NCBI GenBank assembly: GCA_902776305.1
Contig: CACYPS010000004.1
Coordinates: forward strand, 176,624-240,623
DNA length: 64,000 bases
Source of the DNA: an uncultured Lachnospiraceae bacterium
Lineage (GTDB): Bacteria > Bacillota > Clostridia > Lachnospirales > Lachnospiraceae
Reading direction: 5' to 3'
The notes under the pieces are model-generated. The model worked only from the letters and a program-made list of their open reading frames with translations, ran no database searches and was not told the DNA's origin. The stretch's first letter is position 1. Each line of letters opens with the position of its first letter. Of the stretch, positions 42,719 through 55,137 are shown piece by piece. Made by a program: the position numbers and the translations under genes.

Positions 42719-42963
42719 TAGGTTCATAAGAAGCATGCAGGTCAAATAAGTTGTGCGGAACGCAAAACGGATACAGTTGGGAAAACTTTTCTACAAACCG
42801 CTGTTTGTCGAAGAGTTGAAATAGGGATTTCTGTCGCCAGAGAAAGGCAGCGGGAATCCTTTTTTGCGTTAAAGGGGCATAAGTCGTCGGCATAGAAGTG
42901 TGTTTTTGTGGTAGAATAAGAAGCGAAAGATTTTATTTGATGACCGGATGGGGGCCGGAAACC

Positions 42964-45900
42964 ATGTCAAACTTTTCTTTTCTGAATGATAGATTCCCTG
43001 TTCTTGCAAATTTCGGTGAACTGGCTGAGCAGTACTGCTACTCAGATTCCAATTCATGTCTTATGAAGCTCGGCATGATCGGGGAGACGATAGTCAACCT
43101 GATCTTTACCTATGACCGTATTCCGCTTCCGGAAGACAACACGGCTGTCAAGCGGATTGATACTCTGCTTCGTGAGGGTCTGATTACCCGGGATCTCTCG
43201 GACATTCTCCATGCCTTAAGGAAGACAAGAAATAAAGCTGTACATGAAAATTATGCCTCTGTGGAAGACGGGAAGGTCCTTCTGGAGATGGCGTATGGAC
43301 TGTGCGAATGGTTTATGCAGACCTATGGTGACTGGGATTATCAGAATAAGCCCTTTGTCTTGCCGCAGCCGGCACAGGCAAAAGCGACAGTAGATAAAGA
43401 AGCAGAAAAGCAGAAAGAAGAAGAGCTTGTCCAGGAAGCCGAGAAAGCGGCGGCGGACTCTGAGCAGATTGATTCGAATGCCCGCAAGAAGCAGTCACAG
43501 AAGGCTGCCAGCCAGCGTTCGAAGTCTGAAGCAGAAACGCGGTTCATTATTGACGAACAGCTCCGGAAGGTTGGCTGGGAGGCAGATACGGAGAGACTTC
43601 GCTACTCCAAAGGAACGAGACCGGAAAAAGGCCGGAACATGGCGATCGCTGAATGGCCGACGGATTCAACAGTAGGTGACCGGGGGTATGCAGACTACGC
43701 TTTCTTTGTGGGATTGCAAATGGTAGCAACGGTGGAAGCCAAGGCAATCCATAAAGATATTTCATCTGTTATCGATTACCAATGCAAGGACTATTCCCGC
43801 TGCATCCGTGAACAGGATGCACCCTACCAGATCGGAACATGGGGTGAGTACAAGGTGCCGTTCACGTTTGCTACGAATGGACGCCCCTACCTGGAACAGT
43901 ATAAGACGAAAAGCGGCATCTGGTTCCTTGATTTAAGGCAGTCTTATAATGCGCCGTATCCCCTTCGTGGCTGGATCAGTCCGACCGGTATTGTGGATAT
44001 GCTGGCGAGGGATATTGATGCCGGCAACCAGGAACTTCAGAAGATGCCCTATGATCTGCTCCTTGACAAGGATGGTCTGAATCTCCGTGAGTATCAGATC
44101 AAGGCCATCAAAGCTGCTGAAAATGCCATCATAAACGGTCAGCAGAACGTGCTTCTTGCAATGGCGACCGGCACAGGCAAGACCCGCACCATCCTTGGCA
44201 TGATTTACCGTTTTTTGAAGACAGGAAGATTCCGCAGGATCTTGTTCCTGGTCGACCGGACTGCCCTGGGTGAACAGGCGCAGGATGTCTTCAAGGAAGT
44301 CAAGCTGGAAGAACTGATGACGCTTGATGACATTTATAACATCAAGGGCCTTGACGAGAAGACAATTGATAAGGAAACACGCGTTCAGGTCGCTACGGTC
44401 CAGAGCATGGTCAAACGCATCCTCTATAACGATGAGGACACCATGCCGGCTGTTAACGATTATGACCTCGTGATCATTGATGAAGCGCACCGCGGCTATA
44501 TCCTGGATAAGGAGATGGGGGAGAATGAGATCCTCTACCGTGACCAGCTCGATTATCAGAGCAAGTACCGCAGCGTCATGGAATACTTTGATGCTGTCCG
44601 CATTGCCTTGACTGCGACACCGGCCCTACAGACGACACAGATTTTTGGTCAACCAGTTTTCAAATATACTTACCGTGAAGCAGTTATCGAGGGATACCTT
44701 GTGGACCATGATGCTCCGCACAAGCTGACAACGAAGCTGGGAAAAGAAGGGATTCATTATAAGCGTGGCGATACCGTTATAATTTATGACCCGGTGACAG
44801 GGGAAATCATCAATAGCGAACTGCTCGATGATGAACTGAATTTTGATATTGACGACTTTAACCGTAGCATTATCTCAGAGGATACCAACAGGAAGGTCTT
44901 GGAGGAAATTGCCCGAGACATTGATCCGGAGTGCCCGGAGCAAGGAAAGACACTGATCTATGCTGTGGATGATCAGCATGCAGATATGATTGTAAGCATC
45001 CTGAAGGATATTTATTCGGAGTCCGGCGTGGACAATGACGCCATCATGAAGATCACCGGAAGTGTCGGCGGAGGAAATAAGAAGAAGATACAGGAAGCCA
45101 TAAAGCGCTTTAAAAATGAGATCTATCCAAGCATAGTTGTTACAGTGGATCTCTTAACGACCGGTATAGACGTACCGAGGATTACCACGCTGGTATTTAT
45201 GCGCCGCATTAAGAGCCGCATCTTGTTTGAACAGATGATGGGCCGTGCCACCCGTCTGTGCCCGGAGATACACAAAACGCATTTTGAGATCTACGATCCG
45301 GTCGGTGTTTATGATTCTCTGCAAGAGGTAAATACCATGAAACCCGCTGTCGCCAATCCGGCGACCACCTTTAAGCAGCTCATCGAGGGGCTCGAAGCTG
45401 TGGAAGATGATCAGCAGGTCCAGTTTCAGATTGACCAGATTGTTGCCAAGATGCAGAGAAAGAAGCGCAACATGACGGATGAGACCATGGAGCACTTCCT
45501 AAGCATGGCGGACGGAAAAGACCCGACGCAGGTGATCGAGGAGATCCAGCATCTTGATCCGCAGGAGGCAAAGAAGCGTCTTTTTAAGTACGCAGACGCT
45601 ATCCGGATGATGCAGGAGATCAAGGCGAACGGTGATCGTGCAGTCGTGATTTCAACAGAGGAGGACGAGCTGATAGCCCATGAACGCGGCTATGGACGGG
45701 CAAGCAGACCGGAGGACTATCTGGATTCCTTCGCAGCCTATGTTAAGAACAACATGAATGAGGTGGCAGCCCTAAACATAGTGTGCACGAGGCCAAAGGA
45801 CCTGACCAGGGAGAGCCTGAAAAATCTCCGGCTTGCTCTGGACAGGGAAGGTTTTACCACAAAACAGCTCAATACCGCTATCTCCCAGATGACCAATGAG

Positions 45901-46224
45901 GAAATGGCAGCGGACATCATCAGCCTGATCCGCCGCTATGCAATTGGGTCAGCCCTCATCAGCCACGAGGCCAGGATTCACAAAGCCGTTGAGCGGGTAA
46001 AGAAAGCCCATTCATTCTCAAAGCAGGAGATGAACTGGATAGGCCGCATGGAGAAGTATCTGATAGAAGAATCCGTCCTTAATGTGTCTGTCTTTGATGA
46101 GGACAGCCGCTTTAAGGCACAGGGCGGTTTTGCAAGAATTAATAAAGTATTCAAGAACCAATTAGAAAGCATTGTACTGGAACTCAATGAGTACCTGTAC
46201 GATGATGGAGGACATACAGCATGA
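42964..46224 (+). CDS. hsdR: type I restriction enzyme R subunit
   Basis: 1086 residues; the motor and nuclease subunit that translocates and cleaves unmethylated DNA. An N-terminal DUF4145-like helical domain (residues 1-120) and a charged linker precede the HsdR_N nuclease (VGDRGYADYAFFVGLQMVAT, then VEAKAI with the catalytic Glu-x-Lys). The superfamily 2 helicase follows: MATGTGKTRTILG, IIDEAHRGY, ALTATPA and MMGRATRLCPEI. The start is uncertain: an in-frame ATG at 42940 and an earlier frame start also exist. hsdM overlaps the stop (ATGA). This system is complete, unlike the remnant at 8.9-12.7 kb. Confidence 0.93.
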   Translation: MSNFSFLNDRFPVLANFGELAEQYCYSDSNSCLMKLGMIGETIVNLIFTYDRIPLPEDNTAVKRIDTLLREGLITRDLSDILHALRKTRNKAVHENYASVEDGKVLLEMAYGLCEWFMQTYGDWDYQNKPFVLPQPAQAKATVDKEAEKQKEEELVQEAEKAAADSEQIDSNARKKQSQKAASQRSKSEAETRFIIDEQLRKVGWEADTERLRYSKGTRPEKGRNMAIAEWPTDSTVGDRGYADYAFFVGLQMVATVEAKAIHKDISSVIDYQCKDYSRCIREQDAPYQIGTWGEYKVPFTFATNGRPYLEQYKTKSGIWFLDLRQSYNAPYPLRGWISPTGIVDMLARDIDAGNQELQKMPYDLLLDKDGLNLREYQIKAIKAAENAIINGQQNVLLAMATGTGKTRTILGMIYRFLKTGRFRRILFLVDRTALGEQAQDVFKEVKLEELMTLDDIYNIKGLDEKTIDKETRVQVATVQSMVKRILYNDEDTMPAVNDYDLVIIDEAHRGYILDKEMGENEILYRDQLDYQSKYRSVMEYFDAVRIALTATPALQTTQIFGQPVFKYTYREAVIEGYLVDHDAPHKLTTKLGKEGIHYKRGDTVIIYDPVTGEIINSELLDDELNFDIDDFNRSIISEDTNRKVLEEIARDIDPECPEQGKTLIYAVDDQHADMIVSILKDIYSESGVDNDAIMKITGSVGGGNKKKIQEAIKRFKNEIYPSIVVTVDLLTTGIDVPRITTLVFMRRIKSRILFEQMMGRATRLCPEIHKTHFEIYDPVGVYDSLQEVNTMKPAVANPATTFKQLIEGLEAVEDDQQVQFQIDQIVAKMQRKKRNMTDETMEHFLSMADGKDPTQVIEEIQHLDPQEAKKRLFKYADAIRMMQEIKANGDRAVVISTEEDELIAHERGYGRASRPEDYLDSFAAYVKNNMNEVAALNIVCTRPKDLTRESLKNLRLALDREGFTTKQLNTAISQMTNEEMAADIISLIRRYAIGSALISHEARIHKAVERVKKAHSFSKQEMNWIGRMEKYLIEESVLNVSVFDEDSRFKAQGGFARINKVFKNQLESIVLELNEYLYDDGGHTA

Positions 46225-47642
46225 CGACACAGGAAATCGTAGCAAAACTCTGGAATCTTTGTAATGTACTCAGGGATGACGGCATCACCTATCACCAGTA
46301 CGTTACGGAGCTGACGTATATTTTATTCCTGAAGATGGCAAAGGAGACAGGAGTCGAGAGCCAGATCCCGGAAGCCTATCGATGGGATGTCCTCATGTCA
46401 AAAAGCGGAATCGAGTTGAAGAAATATTATAAGGAGCTACTTACCCACTTGGGTGATAACTGCACTGGCCGTATCCGGGAGATCTATCAGGGATCTGCTA
46501 CAAATATCGACGAGCCAAAGAACCTGGAGAAGATCATCACGACGATTGATGGTCTGGACTGGTATTCGGCCAGGGAGGAGGGACTGGGAAACCTCTACGA
46601 AGGTCTTCTGGAGAAGAACGCGAATGAAAAGAAGTCGGGCGCAGGGCAGTACTTCACGCCTCGCGTCCTGATCGATGTCATGACGCGTCTCATGAAGCCG
46701 CAGCCTGGGGAACTCTGCAACGATCCTGCTTGTGGTACGTTCGGTTTTATGATCGCCGCCCATCAATACGTGAAGGATAACACGGATGAGTTCTATGACC
46801 TGGATGCAGATACAGCACAGTTTGAAAGGGAAAAGGCTTTTACAGGCTGCGAGCTTGTGCATGATACGCACCGTCTGGCGCTCATGAATGCCATGCTCCA
46901 TGATATAGAAGGGAAGATCTTGCTGGGGGACACCCTCTCCAACCTTGGAAAGAGAATGAAGGGCTATGATCTCGTTTTAACGAATCCGCCGTTCGGAACA
47001 AAGAAGGGCGGTGAGCGTGCGACCCGTGATGACTTTACCTACCCGACGAGCAACAAGCAGCTGAACTTCCTGCAGCATATCTACCGGAGTTTAAAAGCGG
47101 ATGGCAAAGCAAGAGCTGCAGTCGTGCTGCCGGATAATGTCTTGTTCGCGGATGGTGATGGCGAGCGTATCCGTGTCGACCTTATGGACAAGTGCAATCT
47201 GCACACTGTGCTCCGTCTTCCTACTGGTATCTTCTATGCACAGGGCGTGAAGACAAATGTACTTTTCTTTACAAGAGAAAAGACTGACAAGGGTAATACG
47301 AAGGAAGTCTGGTACTATGACCTCCGCACCAATATGCCGTCCTTCGGAAAAACCAATCCTCTGAAGAAAGAGGATTTCACGGGATTCGAGGCTGCTTATG
47401 AGGCGGAAGACCGCTATGCTGTCCAGGATGAGCGGTGGCATGTGTTCACTCGGGATGAGATCGCTGAGAAAGGAAACAGTCTGGACCTTGGACTGATTCG
47501 TGACGATTCTATAGTTGATTATGAGGATTTGCCAGATCCGATTGAAAGCGGAGAGGAGGCTATCGCACAGCTTGAGGAAGCGATCGATCTGCTTCAGAGT
47601 GTTGTGAAGGAGCTGAAGTCCCTCCAGAGTACGGAGGTGTGA
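46221..47642 (+). CDS. hsdM: type I restriction-modification DNA methyltransferase subunit
   Basis: 473 residues. An HsdM N-terminal domain (VAKLWNLCNVLRDDGITYHQ) is followed by GAGQYFTPRVLIDVMTRLMK, the SAM site DPACGTFGFMIAAHQY and the catalytic NPPFGTKKGGER. It methylates adenine in the site chosen by HsdS and forms M2S with it. The ATG overlaps the hsdR stop and hsdS starts one base after its stop, indicating tight translational coupling. It is only distantly similar to the broken hsdM at 8902, so it is not a recent duplicate. Confidence 0.95.
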   Translation: MTTQEIVAKLWNLCNVLRDDGITYHQYVTELTYILFLKMAKETGVESQIPEAYRWDVLMSKSGIELKKYYKELLTHLGDNCTGRIREIYQGSATNIDEPKNLEKIITTIDGLDWYSAREEGLGNLYEGLLEKNANEKKSGAGQYFTPRVLIDVMTRLMKPQPGELCNDPACGTFGFMIAAHQYVKDNTDEFYDLDADTAQFEREKAFTGCELVHDTHRLALMNAMLHDIEGKILLGDTLSNLGKRMKGYDLVLTNPPFGTKKGGERATRDDFTYPTSNKQLNFLQHIYRSLKADGKARAAVVLPDNVLFADGDGERIRVDLMDKCNLHTVLRLPTGIFYAQGVKTNVLFFTREKTDKGNTKEVWYYDLRTNMPSFGKTNPLKKEDFTGFEAAYEAEDRYAVQDERWHVFTRDEIAEKGNSLDLGLIRDDSIVDYEDLPDPIESGEEAIAQLEEAIDLLQSVVKELKSLQSTEV

Positions 47643-47643
47643 G

Positions 47644-48978
47644 ATGGCAAGAGGAAAAAAGAAAGAAAAGGAGCTCACACCGGAGGAGAAGTTGCAGCAG
47701 GCGTTAGTGCCCTTAGATGAGCAGCCATATGAGATACCGGGAAATTGGTGCTGGATACGAATGGGTAATGTTGCACAGTGGGGGTCTGGCGGAACGCCAT
47801 CTCGAAAGAAAATAGAGTATTATGAAGGTACGATTCCATGGATTAAAACTGGGGAATTGAATGACACCTTTATCTTTGAGACAGAGGAGCATATAACAGA
47901 AGAGGCTATTGCAAATTCGAGTGCAAAACTATTTCCTATAAATACTATAGTAATTGCCATGTATGGTGCAACAATTGGTAAAGTAGGTATTATGGGAATA
48001 GAGGCTGCGACGAATCAGGCGTGTGCGTGTGGGATTTGCTCACCAATATTATACTTCAAATACTTGTTCTTTTACTCATTTTCACAGAAGGATGCATTTA
48101 TAAGTAAATCTAAAGGAGGTGCACAGCCTAATATTTCCCAAGAAATAATAAAGAATCATGTTATCCCGTTACCGCCCATTCCTGAACAGCAGCGTATCGT
48201 TGATCGTATCGAAAGGTTGTTTGCCAAGCTGGATGAGGCTAAGGAAAAGGCTCAGGCTGTTGTGGATGGCTTCGAGGATCGCAAAGCGGCAATTCTGCAT
48301 AAGGCTTTTACTGGAGAGCTGACGGGGAGATGGAGGGCGCGAAGTGCAATTTCAAATAATACATGGAAAAGCACAGTTGTCGGAAAATGCATAACACTTC
48401 TTTCCGGTCAAGACTTCAAACCTGAGCAATACAATTCTGAGGGAAAAGGGCTGCCATATATAACAGGAGCAAGTAATTTTGATGACAAACATGTCATTAT
48501 CAATCGTTGGACAACAGAACCTTCTGTAATTGCTGAAAGAAATGATGTGTTGTTGGTCTGTAAAGGGTCAGGTTATGGAAAAACAATAATTGCAGACTTT
48601 GACAACGCGCATATTGCACGCCAAATAATGGCATTACGTGCTGGTGAGCAATTAGTTAATTCTTATCTGCTATATTTCCTTCAATCTGAATATGAGTACT
48701 TGCGGAATAATGGTCAGGGATTAATTCCCGGGATATCCAGAAGGGTAATACTTGATATGAAGATTAACCTGCCCACTAATGAAGAACAAGAAGAAATAGT
48801 TTCTATATTAGATAAATCTTTCAATAAAGAACAACAAGCAAAGGAAGCCGCTGAACAAGTCATTGCTCAGATAGATACTATGAAGAAATCCATCCTTGCT
48901 CGTGCTTTTCGAGGCGAGCTGGGAACCAACGACCCTACTGATGAAAGTTCTGCAAAACTATTAAAAAGAATACTGTAA
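47644..48978 (+). CDS. hsdS: type I restriction-modification specificity subunit
   Basis: 444 residues with two target recognition domains, each followed by a coiled-coil spacer. TRD1 spans about 30-180 (IPGNWCWIRMGNVAQWGSGG, then PLPPIPEQQRIVDRIERLFA), the spacer contains KAAILHKAFTGELTGRWR, and TRD2 spans about 235-395, ending NLPTNEEQEEIVSILDK with KSILARAFRGELGTN. The TRDs are noticeably AT-richer than the conserved parts, as expected where TRDs are exchanged. It determines the bipartite DNA target. The target itself cannot be read from sequence alone. A terminator follows. Confidence 0.94.
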   Translation: MARGKKKEKELTPEEKLQQALVPLDEQPYEIPGNWCWIRMGNVAQWGSGGTPSRKKIEYYEGTIPWIKTGELNDTFIFETEEHITEEAIANSSAKLFPINTIVIAMYGATIGKVGIMGIEAATNQACACGICSPILYFKYLFFYSFSQKDAFISKSKGGAQPNISQEIIKNHVIPLPPIPEQQRIVDRIERLFAKLDEAKEKAQAVVDGFEDRKAAILHKAFTGELTGRWRARSAISNNTWKSTVVGKCITLLSGQDFKPEQYNSEGKGLPYITGASNFDDKHVIINRWTTEPSVIAERNDVLLVCKGSGYGKTIIADFDNAHIARQIMALRAGEQLVNSYLLYFLQSEYEYLRNNGQGLIPGISRRVILDMKINLPTNEEQEEIVSILDKSFNKEQQAKEAAEQVIAQIDTMKKSILARAFRGELGTNDPTDESSAKLLKRIL

Positions 48979-51562: not shown

Positions 51563-52216
51563 ATGGCAAAGAAGGACAACACACGCGACTATAATGGCAG
51601 AATTCTGAACGAGGATGAAGTACTCGTACAGATCCCGTATGACGAGCTCTACGTAAAAGAGAACTTTACGAACCCTGACAGTATCGGGGAGCTGACAATA
51701 ACTGGCAGGAGCACCCGGACGATGTCTATGGCTATTCCTAAAAATGCTGAGAAACTGGCAAAATCCCAGATGAATTACACACAGAATGAGGAACTCGGAC
51801 ATTACCGGGAAAAGGGTACGGATTATGTTGACTGGGAGCAGGAAGGAAATGCGGGGGACAAGGCCGCACCACAGAAGTCACCCGAAGACATATGTATTGA
51901 GGCAGAAACTCGTGATGAGAATGCAATCAATTTTAAAAAATGCATGAAAAGCATAATCGGTAAAGCTCCTCAGACTGGATATGCCATGCTTGTCATTATG
52001 GCAGACCCGAGCTGCAAGGGAGAGCTCTTTTATGCAAAGATGCGCTTACAGCGGTCTTCGGCCTCAGAGATTAGGGAAAAGGCAATGAAATACATCCGGC
52101 CAGTACTCCATCATAAAGACGTGGTGGTTGAGAAAGAGAACCGTAAAAAGCATGACGACTTCTATCGCAGGGAAGCTCACAGGCTTCTCGACATTGTAGT
52201 GGACATGCTTTGGTGA
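51563..52216 (+). CDS. phage protein of unknown function
   Basis: 217 residues, no recognised family. An N-terminal part (NEDEVLVQIPYDELYVKENF, then TITGRSTRTMSMAIPKNAEK) leads through a low-complexity middle (residues 85-115, with charged Gly/Ala/Lys) to a helical C-terminal domain containing FKKCMKSIIGKAPQTGYAML and a KEN-RKKHDDFYRREAHRLLDI basic stretch. Cytoplasmic. It is the only rightward gene between the immunity genes and the polymerase, preceded by the folded leader and a good AAGGAGGAAAAACAA site. Its isolation behind a structured leader suggests tight control. Confidence 0.7.
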   Translation: MAKKDNTRDYNGRILNEDEVLVQIPYDELYVKENFTNPDSIGELTITGRSTRTMSMAIPKNAEKLAKSQMNYTQNEELGHYREKGTDYVDWEQEGNAGDKAAPQKSPEDICIEAETRDENAINFKKCMKSIIGKAPQTGYAMLVIMADPSCKGELFYAKMRLQRSSASEIREKAMKYIRPVLHHKDVVVEKENRKKHDDFYRREAHRLLDIVVDMLW

Positions 52217-52225
52217 TATATAAAA

Positions 52226-52254
52226 GGCGGCTCCATGTAAGGAGCCGTCTCAAT
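52226..52254. terminator. convergent terminator between the 51563 gene and polA
   Basis: GGCGGCTCC-ATGTAA-GGAGCCGTC. On the reverse strand the stem is followed by TTTTATAT, so it mainly ends the leftward polymerase operon and can also slow rightward transcripts. Confidence 0.8.
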
Positions 52255-55137
52255 TTATGATTTCATATAAAAGGAACACTCGTATCCATCCGCGTTCAAA
52301 AGCAGGCCGGGCATCCAGGGAGGTGTCTGGCCCATCACTTCGCAGATGACTTCCAGCGATGCGTCTATCGGGCATTCGATGATGACCTCGTCATGGACAT
52401 GCCCTACGATGCGGTAGTCGCGGAGAGAGTGCATCGCATAGCAGAGGATATCGCGGCTGATGGCCTGTACGATGTTTTCCACGAATTTCGGCCCGTAGCT
52501 TTCAATCCGGCTCCATTTTTTCGTGTTGTCCGTGCCCATGTAGGTAATGGATTCTCCGCCGAAACGGTTCATGCCCATCTGCGGCTTCGCGTAGGAGAGC
52601 CTCCTGCCGGACGGTAGTGTGATGAATAGCATCCCTGCTTTATAATAGAACGTCACGTCACCAACGCTCGATGCGATATGCTGTCGGACGGCAAGTTTTA
52701 CGGCTTTGTCTACTTTCCACCAATACTGGACAATGTTTGAATTTGCGTTGCGCCATGCATCGACAAGGGGCTGCAGTTCCTCCTCAGACAAGCCCATCTC
52801 GAGTGCACCCATCGCCCTTAAGGCACCGACAGACCCGCCGTATCCGCAATTGTGGACGAGATGTCCCGATACGGTAAAACGGTGATGTCTTCCGGCATTT
52901 CGTATGTCATAAAGTCGAGCCGTGCGCTTATGATCCTCCAATTCTTCCTTTTCTCGGATACCGAAGTCTCCGCGTTCTGAATAATCTGATCCCGGGTTAG
53001 CCCTGATGACAGCTTCCGTATGACAACATTTTCTGAATAAGGCCAGTACTTCTGCATGAACCCGCCCAGTACAGACCTCCGCTGATTGATGCAGTTCACT
53101 CTGTGTTCCACAAAGCGCAGATTCCCCGGGGCATAGTCCCCGTTCGTATCGATGCGGTCGATCTCCATGTTTCTGTCCGGAAGCCCAAATTGCTCTATCA
53201 GATATAGCCCAGCTTCTGTAACGCTTGAAAAACGAAACCTGATCCCTCTTTCTCCATAGTTGTGGTAACCCGGATCGTTCGGGTTCTCGCATCTCTGTTT
53301 TGCAGCAGTCAACCTCCTGTCCAGCCATAATGGTATCTGCCTTGGCCGAGAGCAGCTCTGACATCCGTTTGATTTGCCGGATCGCAAATTGTCCAAAAGC
53401 TGCCACTGCACACTTCCACAGCCCTGGCACTCCGTCAGTACATAACAATGGTTCCAGTTCTTGTTCCATCTCTTCTCCGGAGATATGATTTTCACCCAAC
53501 CGTATTGCTTGCCCACCATTTCCGGTTTGTACGAGATGTGCGCCTCTGGCGGCGGCGACTCCAAAACATATCGGCTCCGGTTTCCCTTCAACCCAGACGA
53601 GGTGGTCGGATGTTGCAGTAAGTCCTTCATAAGTAATCACCTCACGTTCTCCCTTGTAAACGACGCCGTCATGCCACACCCATGATTCACCGTCCCAGAC
53701 TTTCATTTCTGTAGTTACCTTCTCGATAGGCACAAGCCCCCTGTCCGTCAGGACGGGACTGCCTTCTGCTATGCATGCCAGTTCCGCTATCTTCCCTTTC
53801 TGCCTGAGATGCCCGTTTACGCCGTGCTTCTCTACGGGAACCCCGAACATCTGCGATGCTGACATGCAGTAAATGTCGCCGCCCGTGCGGAAGACCTCCG
53901 AGCGCCATGCCTCGCCTGCAAGATAGGAGAGGACCCTGGCTTCTATGGCAGAGAAGTCTGCCACGATGAACTTGTATCCTGGACGTGGAATAAATGCGGT
54001 CCTGACAAGTTCTGAGAGCACCTGCGGCACATTTCCGTACAGGAGCTTTAGCATTTCGTAATCCCCCATCTTCACAAGGGACCTTGCTTCCGCGAGATCC
54101 GGCATGTGGTTCTGAGGGAGATTCTGTAGCTGGATCAGCCTGCCGGCCCACCGACCAGTCCGGTTCGCTCCGTAGAACTGGAACATGCCATGGCAGCGAC
54201 CGTCATTGCAGACGGAGTTCTCCATAGCTTGGTATTTCTTTACACTGCTCTTTGCCAGCATAAGCCGGAGGGATAACACTTCCGCGATCTCCCGCGGGGC
54301 ATCCTTCATGGCGGCAGCCACTTCCTTTTTTCCAAGTGTCTCCATCGGGAAGCCATTCTCTTTGAGCCAACCCTGTAGCTGGGGAACAGAGTTCGGATTC
54401 TCAAGTCCTGTCAGTTCTTTCATCCTCTGAGAAATGTCCTCCTTGGACACTGTATCCATGCGGATAGCCTGTTCGACAAGCTGCCTGTCAATCATGATGC
54501 CGCGGTCATTGATTTCCTGATCCTGATGGTATTCGTCCCATACGGGGGTAGGAACCGGGTAGTTTGCAAGGCGCCTGTGTATCTGCATTTCCACTTCCAC
54601 GTCACGTATGTTGTATTTCTTGAACAGTTCCCATTTCTGAGGCGCGTGCTCTGGCAGATTTCTTGTCCTCCCCCCATTTGCTTTCGTAGCTTTGCAGGGA
54701 ACGCAAAAGTAGCGGATAAGATCTTTCCCCTCTTTCAGCTTCTGTTCAGGCAGGCCAAGCGCAGCTCCGCATCCTTCGAGGGAGATTGGCAGGCCGTTGT
54801 AGGCGGCAAGGATCATATCGCAGTACCAGGAACCGGGATCAAGGTACCCACTGTTCAGATATCCGATCCGTTTCAGGTATTCGGAAAGGCAGATCCGCTC
54901 GAACGCGGCATTATAGCTGTGCTTTTTAACGCATGGATCGGTGAGGGCATCCAGAATCGCATCCGGGATGCTTTCACCGGATGCAAGGTCGTACTGTTCC
55001 ACCGGTTCGTCATCTACCGATGCGCCAAAGAGCAGTATCTCAAACGCAGGAGAGCCTACATATCTGTAGGCCCCCGCTTTCTTTATATCCACATCTGAGA
55101 ATGTTTCCAAGTCAATCATGAGCTTGTCCATACTCAT
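52255..55137 (-). CDS. phage family A DNA polymerase precursor with in-frame intein
   Basis: 960 residues. The 3'-5' exonuclease domain has MIDLETFS (Exo I, residues 7-14), HSYNAAFE (Exo II) and NIRDVEVEMQ (Exo III). The polymerase domain has motif A VADFSAIEARVLSYLAGE (392-409), motif B RQKGKIAELA + CGYGGSVGAL and motif C VGHVHDEVII (911-920). Motif B is split between Ala454 and Cys764 by a 309-residue intein (455-763). After splicing the enzyme would be 651 residues, the usual size for this phage polymerase. Last gene of the leftward operon after DUF2800 and DUF2815. It presumably replicates the element's DNA, and activity would depend on splicing because the O-helix is interrupted. Confidence 0.95.
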   Translation of the reverse strand: MSMDKLMIDLETFSDVDIKKAGAYRYVGSPAFEILLFGASVDDEPVEQYDLASGESIPDAILDALTDPCVKKHSYNAAFERICLSEYLKRIGYLNSGYLDPGSWYCDMILAAYNGLPISLEGCGAALGLPEQKLKEGKDLIRYFCVPCKATKANGGRTRNLPEHAPQKWELFKKYNIRDVEVEMQIHRRLANYPVPTPVWDEYHQDQEINDRGIMIDRQLVEQAIRMDTVSKEDISQRMKELTGLENPNSVPQLQGWLKENGFPMETLGKKEVAAAMKDAPREIAEVLSLRLMLAKSSVKKYQAMENSVCNDGRCHGMFQFYGANRTGRWAGRLIQLQNLPQNHMPDLAEARSLVKMGDYEMLKLLYGNVPQVLSELVRTAFIPRPGYKFIVADFSAIEARVLSYLAGEAWRSEVFRTGGDIYCMSASQMFGVPVEKHGVNGHLRQKGKIAELACIAEGSPVLTDRGLVPIEKVTTEMKVWDGESWVWHDGVVYKGEREVITYEGLTATSDHLVWVEGKPEPICFGVAAARGAHLVQTGNGGQAIRLGENHISGEEMEQELEPLLCTDGVPGLWKCAVAAFGQFAIRQIKRMSELLSAKADTIMAGQEVDCCKTEMREPERSGLPQLWRKRDQVSFFKRYRSWAISDRAIWASGQKHGDRPHRYERGLCPGESALCGTQSELHQSAEVCTGRVHAEVLALFRKCCHTEAVIRANPGSDYSERGDFGIREKEELEDHKRTARLYDIRNAGRHHRFTVSGHLVHNCGYGGSVGALRAMGALEMGLSEEELQPLVDAWRNANSNIVQYWWKVDKAVKLAVRQHIASSVGDVTFYYKAGMLFITLPSGRRLSYAKPQMGMNRFGGESITYMGTDNTKKWSRIESYGPKFVENIVQAISRDILCYAMHSLRDYRIVGHVHDEVIIECPIDASLEVICEVMGQTPPWMPGLLLNADGYECSFYMKS
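52818..53630 (-). CDS. HNH homing endonuclease nested in the +1 frame of the intein
   Basis: 270 codons, entirely inside the polymerase gene, shifted +1. AGGTGA (53642-53637) lies six bases before the ATG, so it has its own ribosome binding site. From residue 38 the protein matches free-standing phage HNH nucleases: MVGKQYGWVKIIS, a zinc-type pair CQGC/CQSC (residues 68-93), KQRCENPNDPGYHNYGERGI, MEIDRIDTNGDYAPGNLRF with NCINQRRS, and a C-terminal HTH-like segment ENVVIRKLSSGLTRDQII. Residues 1-37 and about 225-270 overlap intein blocks B and F and look frame-constrained. The ORF ends 30 bases past the C-terminal splice junction. It should cut intein-less polymerase genes and so spread the intein. 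Confidence 0.88.
   Translation of the reverse strand: MKDLLQHPTTSSGLKGNRSRYVLESPPPEAHISYKPEMVGKQYGWVKIISPEKRWNKNWNHCYVLTECQGCGSVQWQLLDNLRSGKSNGCQSCSRPRQIPLWLDRRLTAAKQRCENPNDPGYHNYGERGIRFRFSSVTEAGLYLIEQFGLPDRNMEIDRIDTNGDYAPGNLRFVEHRVNCINQRRSVLGGFMQKYWPYSENVVIRKLSSGLTRDQIIQNAETSVSEKRKNWRIISARLDFMTYEMPEDITVLPYRDISSTIADTAGLSVP
52849..53775 (-). mobile_element. class 1 intein in DNA polymerase motif B
   Basis: All splicing blocks are visible in the polymerase frame. Block A is CIAEGSPVLTDRGLVPIEKV (Cys455 as first residue). Block B is GLTATSDHLVWV (Thr509-x-x-His512). Block F is RLYDIRNAGRHHRFTV (741-756). Block G is HLVHN (His762-Asn763), with Cys764 as the +1 nucleophile. About 225 residues separate B and F; in this frame they show no LAGLIDADG or HNH motif and look like filler. 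In the +1 frame the same DNA encodes an HNH endonuclease. The insertion point is a highly conserved active-site motif, typical for inteins. Confidence 0.93.

Follow-up and report, generated by a model that had tools for sequence, protein, structure and literature searches.

A prophage DNA polymerase intein with a probable homing endonuclease gene overprinted in its +1 frame

The polymerase locus and its two reading frames

We analysed a window of 64,000 nucleotides from the genome of an uncultured Lachnospiraceae bacterium (assembly GCA_902776305.1, contig CACYPS010000004.1, positions 176,624 to 240,623). On its minus strand lies a phage DNA polymerase gene interrupted in frame by an intein, and over the same bases the +1 frame carries a second open reading frame (ORF) of a phage HNH endonuclease family. 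An earlier note, made from the letters of the sequence, had proposed that one DNA segment here encodes a splicing element and, by overprinting, a separate nuclease. The features concerned are the following (window positions, strand, description and, in brackets, basis).

52255..55137, minus: PolA-family phage DNA polymerase gene with the intein in frame, 960 aa (ORF; Pfam; PHROG)
52849..53775, minus: intein, 309 aa, polymerase residues 455-763 (boundaries; intein-free relatives; invariant residues)
53524..53775, minus: N-terminal splicing part, intein residues 1-84, blocks A and B (confident AlphaFold2 prediction)
53638..53643, minus: Shine-Dalgarno (SD)-like GAGGTG, 7 nt before the nested ATG, in intein codons E45-V46 (goes with the ATG in relatives)
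53628..53630, minus: nested ATG, formed by the intein Tyr49 codon (TAT) and the next G (sequence; alternative start in some relatives)
52933..53523, minus: overprinted linker in the polymerase frame, intein residues 85-281, with no predicted structure (predicted local distance difference test score, pLDDT, < 50; frame kept open)
52849..52932, minus: C-terminal splicing part, intein residues 282-309, blocks F and G (confident AlphaFold2 prediction; conserved residues)
52818..53630, minus: nested HNH-family endonuclease ORF, 270 aa plus stop codon, +1 frame (ORF; phrog_374; AlphaFold2; codon-position pattern)
52818..52848, minus: tail and stop codon of the nested ORF, inside the C-extein (ORF coordinates)

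The polymerase ORF matches DNA_pol_A of Pfam (6.3e-19) and the PHROG DNA polymerase families phrog_17/10285. Its intein is bounded by ...KIAELA before and CGYGGSVG after, and relatives that lack an intein (L017-L026; loci are cited by number) read ELA(C/L)G(Y/F)GG across the same point. The insertion is precise and in frame, and intein-free alleles exist at the same position. Residues C1, T55, H58, H308 and N309 are invariant in 25/25 aligned intein rows, and a Cys occupies position +1 after the intein in 38/38 parsed same-site inteins. The element thus carries the residues of a class 1 HINT domain (Cys1, the TxxH of block B, a C-terminal His-Asn and Cys/Ser/Thr at +1), the conserved residues being assigned to what we take to be the usual block names. 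In the AlphaFold2 model, the stretch of pLDDT < 50 makes up most of the overprinted part. The top 38 Foldseek matches of this model are all inteins or intein-like BIL domains (we take two of them, PI-SceI and 4oz6, to be inteins), and the predicted fold agrees with that of a HINT domain. Sequence searches of the PDB with both alignments gave nothing in one case and one intein-type chain at E 0.48 in the other. Separately, phrog_26005, a family labelled 'unknown function', is matched by this N-terminal part and by that of many of the diverse inteins, and so probably contains this intein domain.

Relative to the intein, the nested ORF begins 145 nt inside and, with its stop codon, extends 31 nt past the end. 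It overlaps the intein over about 260 codons, not the roughly 190 first counted, and also covers the C-terminal splicing blocks; both frames are open. An HNH-type nuclease in the +1 frame is confirmed at family level by a match to the phage HNH endonuclease family phrog_374 (E 4.8e-22), while Pfam and NCBIfam gave no match for the nested ORF. Its AlphaFold2 model has a mean pLDDT of 80. Four Cys, E156, D158, R159 and N170 are invariant in 36 HNH rows, and N179 is conserved in at least 90% of them; the four cysteines are probably zinc-binding.

Selection on both frames

Selection was assessed by shuffling HNH codons 38-240 among synonymous positions, 1000 times per sequence, with the protein and its codon use held fixed. 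The loci often included the same contigs fetched twice, and all tests were run on de-duplicated sets. In the window copy the polymerase frame contains 0 stops, and 10.1 are expected (0/1000 shuffles reached zero), close to the nine or so that the earlier note had guessed; the third frame has somewhat few stops as well (8 vs 12.4, P 0.01). Among 21 representatives of less than 95% nucleotide identity, restricted to 309-aa inteins and with a median pairwise nucleotide identity of 67%, the pooled polymerase frame holds 0 stops against 205.5 expected and the third frame is not depleted (262 vs 247.6). Codons ending in T never precede a codon starting with AA, AG or GA (0/968), compared with 794/2277 elsewhere, counting residues able to end in T. 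Free-standing HNH homologues show no depletion in the equivalent frame (n=15, 411 vs 412 stops; by set, 221 vs 211.3 for 6 genes and 190 vs 200.9 for the other 9); one locus, L157, was removed from these controls, being itself enclosed in a host frame. For 26 more distant loci 161.5 host-frame stops would be expected; their count of zero arises by construction, enclosure having been the criterion of choice. The third frame of these loci has 163 stops vs 159.4, and the single-locus P exceeds 0.05 in L104 only.

Mean pairwise diversity by codon position tells the same two-frame story from another side. Before the nested ATG (intein nt 0-145) it amounts to 0.26/0.16/0.61 at polymerase positions 1/2/3, and over the HNH core (nt 256-865) to 0.58/0.29/0.22, polymerase position 1, which is HNH position 3, being the most variable there. 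Within the intein, the codon position free to vary changes from that of the polymerase to that of the HNH. In the overlaps between splicing parts and nested gene all three positions vary little (0.26/0.10/0.30 at nt 145-256, 0.12/0.09/0.25 at nt 865-927). Each frame is constrained where it would be expected to be, and the intein ends look dual-coding. These patterns show that both frames carry marks of selection.

Start signals of the nested gene

The start site was compared in 77 unique HNH inteins of less than 90% identity over 240 nt, with duplex energies calculated against what we take to be the anti-SD sequence. The Tyr49-derived ATG is present in 59/77. An SD of -6 kcal/mol or better lies upstream in 51/59 loci with this ATG and in 3/18 without it (Fisher 8e-8). 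The Glu45 codon is GAG in 45/51, a choice made in 75/216 of other nearby Glu codons (p 2e-12). Among the 18 ATG-less loci, 10 have an ATG exactly 12 nt upstream, which occurs in 0/59 of the others (p 4e-8), and this upstream ATG has another SD in the codons preceding it (median -8.4 kcal/mol; just -5.6 in L113). Two more ATG-less loci offer a GTG 12 nt upstream (L135) or an ATG 3 nt downstream (L133). The HNH frame opens only inside the intein in 16/18 loci, and is open upstream of it in L096 and L181. In the sections of PMC2988022 on the subject, T4 intron nucleases are likewise described with an SD about 8 nt before the start, and a ribosome-binding site (RBS) of its own would thus fit a phage homing nuclease.

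Relatives at the same site and signs of mobility

Searches with the HNH protein recovered 15 loci from IMG/VR and 22 from genomes of species, and annotated phage records added examples from Streptococcus and Gardnerella. The 38 same-site inteins that could be parsed comprise 31 of 309 aa and 3 of 263 aa with the HNH in +1, and 4 mini-inteins. None has a polymerase-frame stop (0 in 38/38), although the earlier note had named such stops as a finding that would refute its proposal, and the third frame of the 309-aa copies holds 10-31 stops. Six further HNH-related loci were left unparsed: L015 and L043 at contig ends, L045 and L047 as degenerate or partial, and L029 and L004. The polymerase gene of L029 is frameshifted, its relative L002 being intact; in L004 the N-terminal part of the polymerase is replaced, and in L034 the host ORF is shorter upstream of the intein. 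In length, L048 departs from L002 through a single in-frame gap of 555 nt, in which most of the HNH is lost while the polymerase frame is kept.

Two side observations concern these relatives. In L004 (3452-4768) the HNH frame runs on into an upstream ORF, whose C-terminal part resembles, by eye, a sigma-factor HTH. The polymerase ORF of L044 (1570-4866) has a second insertion (CLTGDHEVLTLDGW ... WVTGN) upstream of its mini-intein, probably an in-frame intein.

The inteins of L098, L099 and L101 are identical over 927 nt, as are the adjacent 100-nt bins on both sides (100%). Further upstream identity falls to 72-97%. Downstream it is 61-79% between L099 and the other two, with a last gapless bin of 30% that is probably misaligned, and the whole examined C-extein is common to L098 and L101. 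This pattern looks like homing. Conversely, near-identical exteins carry different inteins in the pairs L040/L236 and L073/L232. An extein tree of 66 rows (4 of them intein-free), made by a quick method with Shimodaira-Hasegawa-like approximate likelihood ratio test support only, requires at least 14 changes between the states none, HNH and mini, and at least 3 changes of intein presence. By these sequence comparisons, the element has moved between divergent polymerase genes.

How widespread the layout is

A profile scan with the HNH gave 395 confirmed places, of which the best 80 were taken; in 8 of these 80 no HNH ORF was recognized by motif. In the others, 71/72 HNH ORFs lie in +1 of an open host ORF, the remaining one (L121) starting at a contig edge. 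Twenty of the hosts were scanned: 11 are PolA, 4 phrog_16 helicases, 4 phrog_19 DnaB-like helicases and 1 gave no identification. PolA carries the insertion at more than one site.

The reverse search used the 70-aa N-terminal splicing domain alone as query, and the best 80 of at least 577 confirmed places, which are not a random sample, were examined. Two were unparsed (L202, L220). Among the 78 parsed loci, 61 have an HNH in +1 (60 by motif, L238 by eye), 15 are mini-inteins (L236 being one of 110 aa) and 2 are cut by contig ends (L200, L221). An HNH in +2 was found in 0/78, and an HNH in frame with the intein, the other finding that the earlier note had named as refuting its proposal, in 0/70 of those whose C-terminal end could be parsed.

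Among 391 genomes of the window's class, 13 have matches at E <= 1e-20: this intein in 4 (the window's own included), free-standing genes in 8 and L157 in 1. L157, of the same class, is a distant HNH (31%), enclosed in +1 by an open frame of 817 aa that has 0 stops. The overprinted-intein ORF of L127 (2047-5016) also matches the phrog_93 endonuclease over residues 632-679, perhaps a second intein, and the 214-kb contig IMGVR_UViG_3300046030_000049 has two polymerase genes (L074, L075) with an overprinted intein in each.

A different arrangement of the same kind occurs in Jerseyvirus and Dhillonvirus polymerases. Ent1, LP31, SO-1 and EP23 have a 299-aa polymerase intein with the HNH in +2 and the host frame open, with 0 host-frame stops vs 4.9-6.3 expected per gene in the 4 genomes. 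As in the window, an HNH occupies an alternative frame of an intein; in contrast to the window, where it is in +1, it is in +2 here and the insertion site is another one (KA|C...HN|CELGLGYGG or similar). The first HNH start codons have a weak to moderate SD (-3.3 to -7.1). The Ent1 record mentions only splicing domains in the intein, and that of SO-1 an HNH and a 'type I self-splicing intron'. These viruses represent a second, probably independent case.

Setting of the polymerase gene

The neighbours of the polymerase gene include phage replication genes for an ssDNA-annealing protein, an exonuclease, a helicase/primase and a helicase. Since the window sits in a bacterial genome of 4.08 Mb in 128 contigs, the region is most likely a prophage. 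A 217-aa ORF (51563-52213, plus strand) with no PHROG match follows directly after the polymerase gene on its downstream side, and PADLOC matches at 42898-48978 correspond to genes for a type I restriction enzyme, a methyltransferase and a specificity subunit.

Discussion

Our preferred explanation, to which we give a probability of roughly 90%, is that the prophage DNA polymerase contains a mobile intein, and that the homing endonuclease of this intein is a separate protein, encoded by overprinting. The polymerase frame would yield a splicing domain interrupted by about 200 residues with no predicted structure, and the intein would excise itself and join the polymerase halves. From the internal SD and ATG, built of conserved intein codons, the +1 frame would yield a separate HNH-family nuclease, which would cleave polymerase alleles that lack the intein and so cause the entire segment to be copied into them; the homing-type tracts in relatives support this last step. 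Translation of both proteins, splicing, cleavage and the cleavage site are what we infer from these data. The proposal of the earlier note is thereby strengthened, with stop depletion, codon-position rates, a conserved start site and homing-type tracts all pointing the same way. It is also likely, in our view, that the window belongs to a large phage-borne class of 'overprinted inteins', in which one splicing-domain family occupies polymerase and helicase genes, the nuclease (where present) is separate and in +1, and the start site derives from conserved splicing-domain codons, in one of two modules that lie 12 nt apart and exclude each other; in Jerseyvirus and Dhillonvirus, another intein with the HNH in +2 would form a second class of independent origin.

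Several observations weigh against this explanation. In Foldseek, the best match of the intein model to inteins has an E-value of 0.014, none reaching 0.001, and the HNH model has no significant fold match in the PDB (best E 0.49; PacI 1.4). No His is invariant among the 36 HNH family rows; for this reason 'HNH' is used here as a family name only, and the label given in the earlier note holds in that restricted sense. Some copies have decayed HNH frames (L050, which is shortened, and L149). Over 51 inteins of 309 aa, the identity of the intein rises with that of the extein (Spearman 0.45), which implies that vertical inheritance is substantial. At the start site, 8/77 HNH loci have the ATG with no SD of -6 kcal/mol or better, and 6/18 ATG-less loci have no substitute start (L057, L112, L122, L130, L205, L234); five of these six have some other start codon with an SD of that strength, which may be chance, and L205 has none. 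Moreover, the ATG is kept in 12/16 HNH-less mini-inteins. Because such minis mostly keep the SD and ATG, the start signal partly reflects shared descent, and in the SD test they cannot stand for inteins that 'never had HNH'. An RNA hairpin regulating the start site was considered and rejected, the mean unpaired probability of the SD (0.36 vs a local mean of 0.42, n=18) being patternless.

The nested nuclease could be real but dead or domesticated, a passenger whose spread is due to ordinary recombination. We regard this as unlikely. It would suit the frequency of mini-inteins (15/78), the decay of some HNH frames and the free recombination of phages, but it would leave unexplained why the HNH frame remains constrained by codon position at a median nucleotide identity of 67%, and why identical inteins with short identical flanks stand in divergent genes.

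Programmed ribosomal frameshifting from the polymerase frame, producing an N-extein-intein-HNH fusion and no free protein, is a good deal less probable still. The +1 position of the HNH frame and its openness upstream of the intein in L096 and L181, 2/18 loci, speak for such a mechanism; in the other 16/18, however, the frame opens only within the intein, and the conserved SD and ATG, like the mutually exclusive alternative starts, would then serve no purpose.

Phage HNH genes are often located in group I introns, and the annotators of Sodalis phage SO-1 wrote of a self-splicing intron in a related case, so that a group I or group II intron, removed at the RNA level, could be imagined here. 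This we find hardly credible: window positions 52200-54200 have no Rfam match at E <= 1, six related loci (L056, L145, L049, L119, L126, L123) have none at gathering scores, and the host frame, which codes for intein blocks, stays open, whereas an intron removed from RNA would need no open frame. Finally, a chance open frame, or two compensating frameshifts from assembly or sequencing error in a bifunctional intein with an in-frame HNH, can be set aside: a frameshifted copy does exist (L029 beside L002), but the lack of in-frame HNHs and of polymerase-frame stops described above, and the recurrence of the layout in the annotated phages Javan255 and Gardnerella AB1 and in independently sequenced contigs, make it exceedingly improbable.

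The layout differs from those of bifunctional and split inteins. Bifunctional (large) inteins hold a LAGLIDADG or HNH endonuclease in frame, in the same polypeptide. They resemble the window in combining a splicing domain and a homing nuclease into one mobile element at a conserved site of an essential gene; in the window, by contrast, the nuclease is a separate polypeptide in another frame, and the host frame shows no HNH motif in 70/70 loci checked of the 78 parsed. The 'fractured genes' of Dassa (2009) reportedly include split inteins with a free-standing nuclease between the halves. There too a free nuclease gene stands between two splicing halves, but in the window the host gene is one continuous 960-aa ORF instead of two, and the nuclease gene overlaps it.

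The closest precedent, as far as the relevant sections of the source describe it, is the out-of-frame HNH of the ShiLan domain, which is not an intein. These sections report the ShiLan domain and the Pacc40 gp60 insertion as hidden out-of-frame HNHs in mycobacteriophage DNA methylases, with no intein splicing motifs and no RBS noted there, and propose that the insert stays in the protein (PMC11855218). ShiLan and the window, on this description, both have an HNH in another frame of an insertion and an open host gene, and the ShiLan distribution is disjunct and homing-like. Unlike ShiLan so described, the window has a complete intein splicing domain around the nuclease and a built-in RBS. The Pacc40 insertion is a weak sequence relative of the window HNH (27.6%, E 1e-4), with its HNH ORF in +2 relative to the host. 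One such out-of-frame HNH case also figures in the part of PMC12613952 concerned. For overlapping frames, the same sections of PMC11855218 cite Gorbalenya 1998 ('Non-canonical inteins') and a 2025 preprint; as these may describe the present layout, we claim no priority for it.

Annotation misses nucleases of this kind, the records naming a plain 'DNA polymerase I' or only the intein 'splicing domains'. The proposal, as worded in those sections of PMC11855218, that hidden out-of-frame nucleases are translated becomes testable, an RBS being identifiable here. The family also offers a natural system for the origin and persistence of overlapping genes, with several sites and dozens of sequences, in which intein-free, nuclease-free and nuclease-bearing states and a visible swap of start sites occur side by side. 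Textbook inteins hold their nuclease in the same polypeptide; if our explanation is true, a common phage intein family makes two proteins per segment, and the nuclease could follow its own timing in expression, folding and loss, with the host protein still readable. Overlapping genes would in that case offer a stable way, used repeatedly, of joining a splicing element and a homing nuclease.

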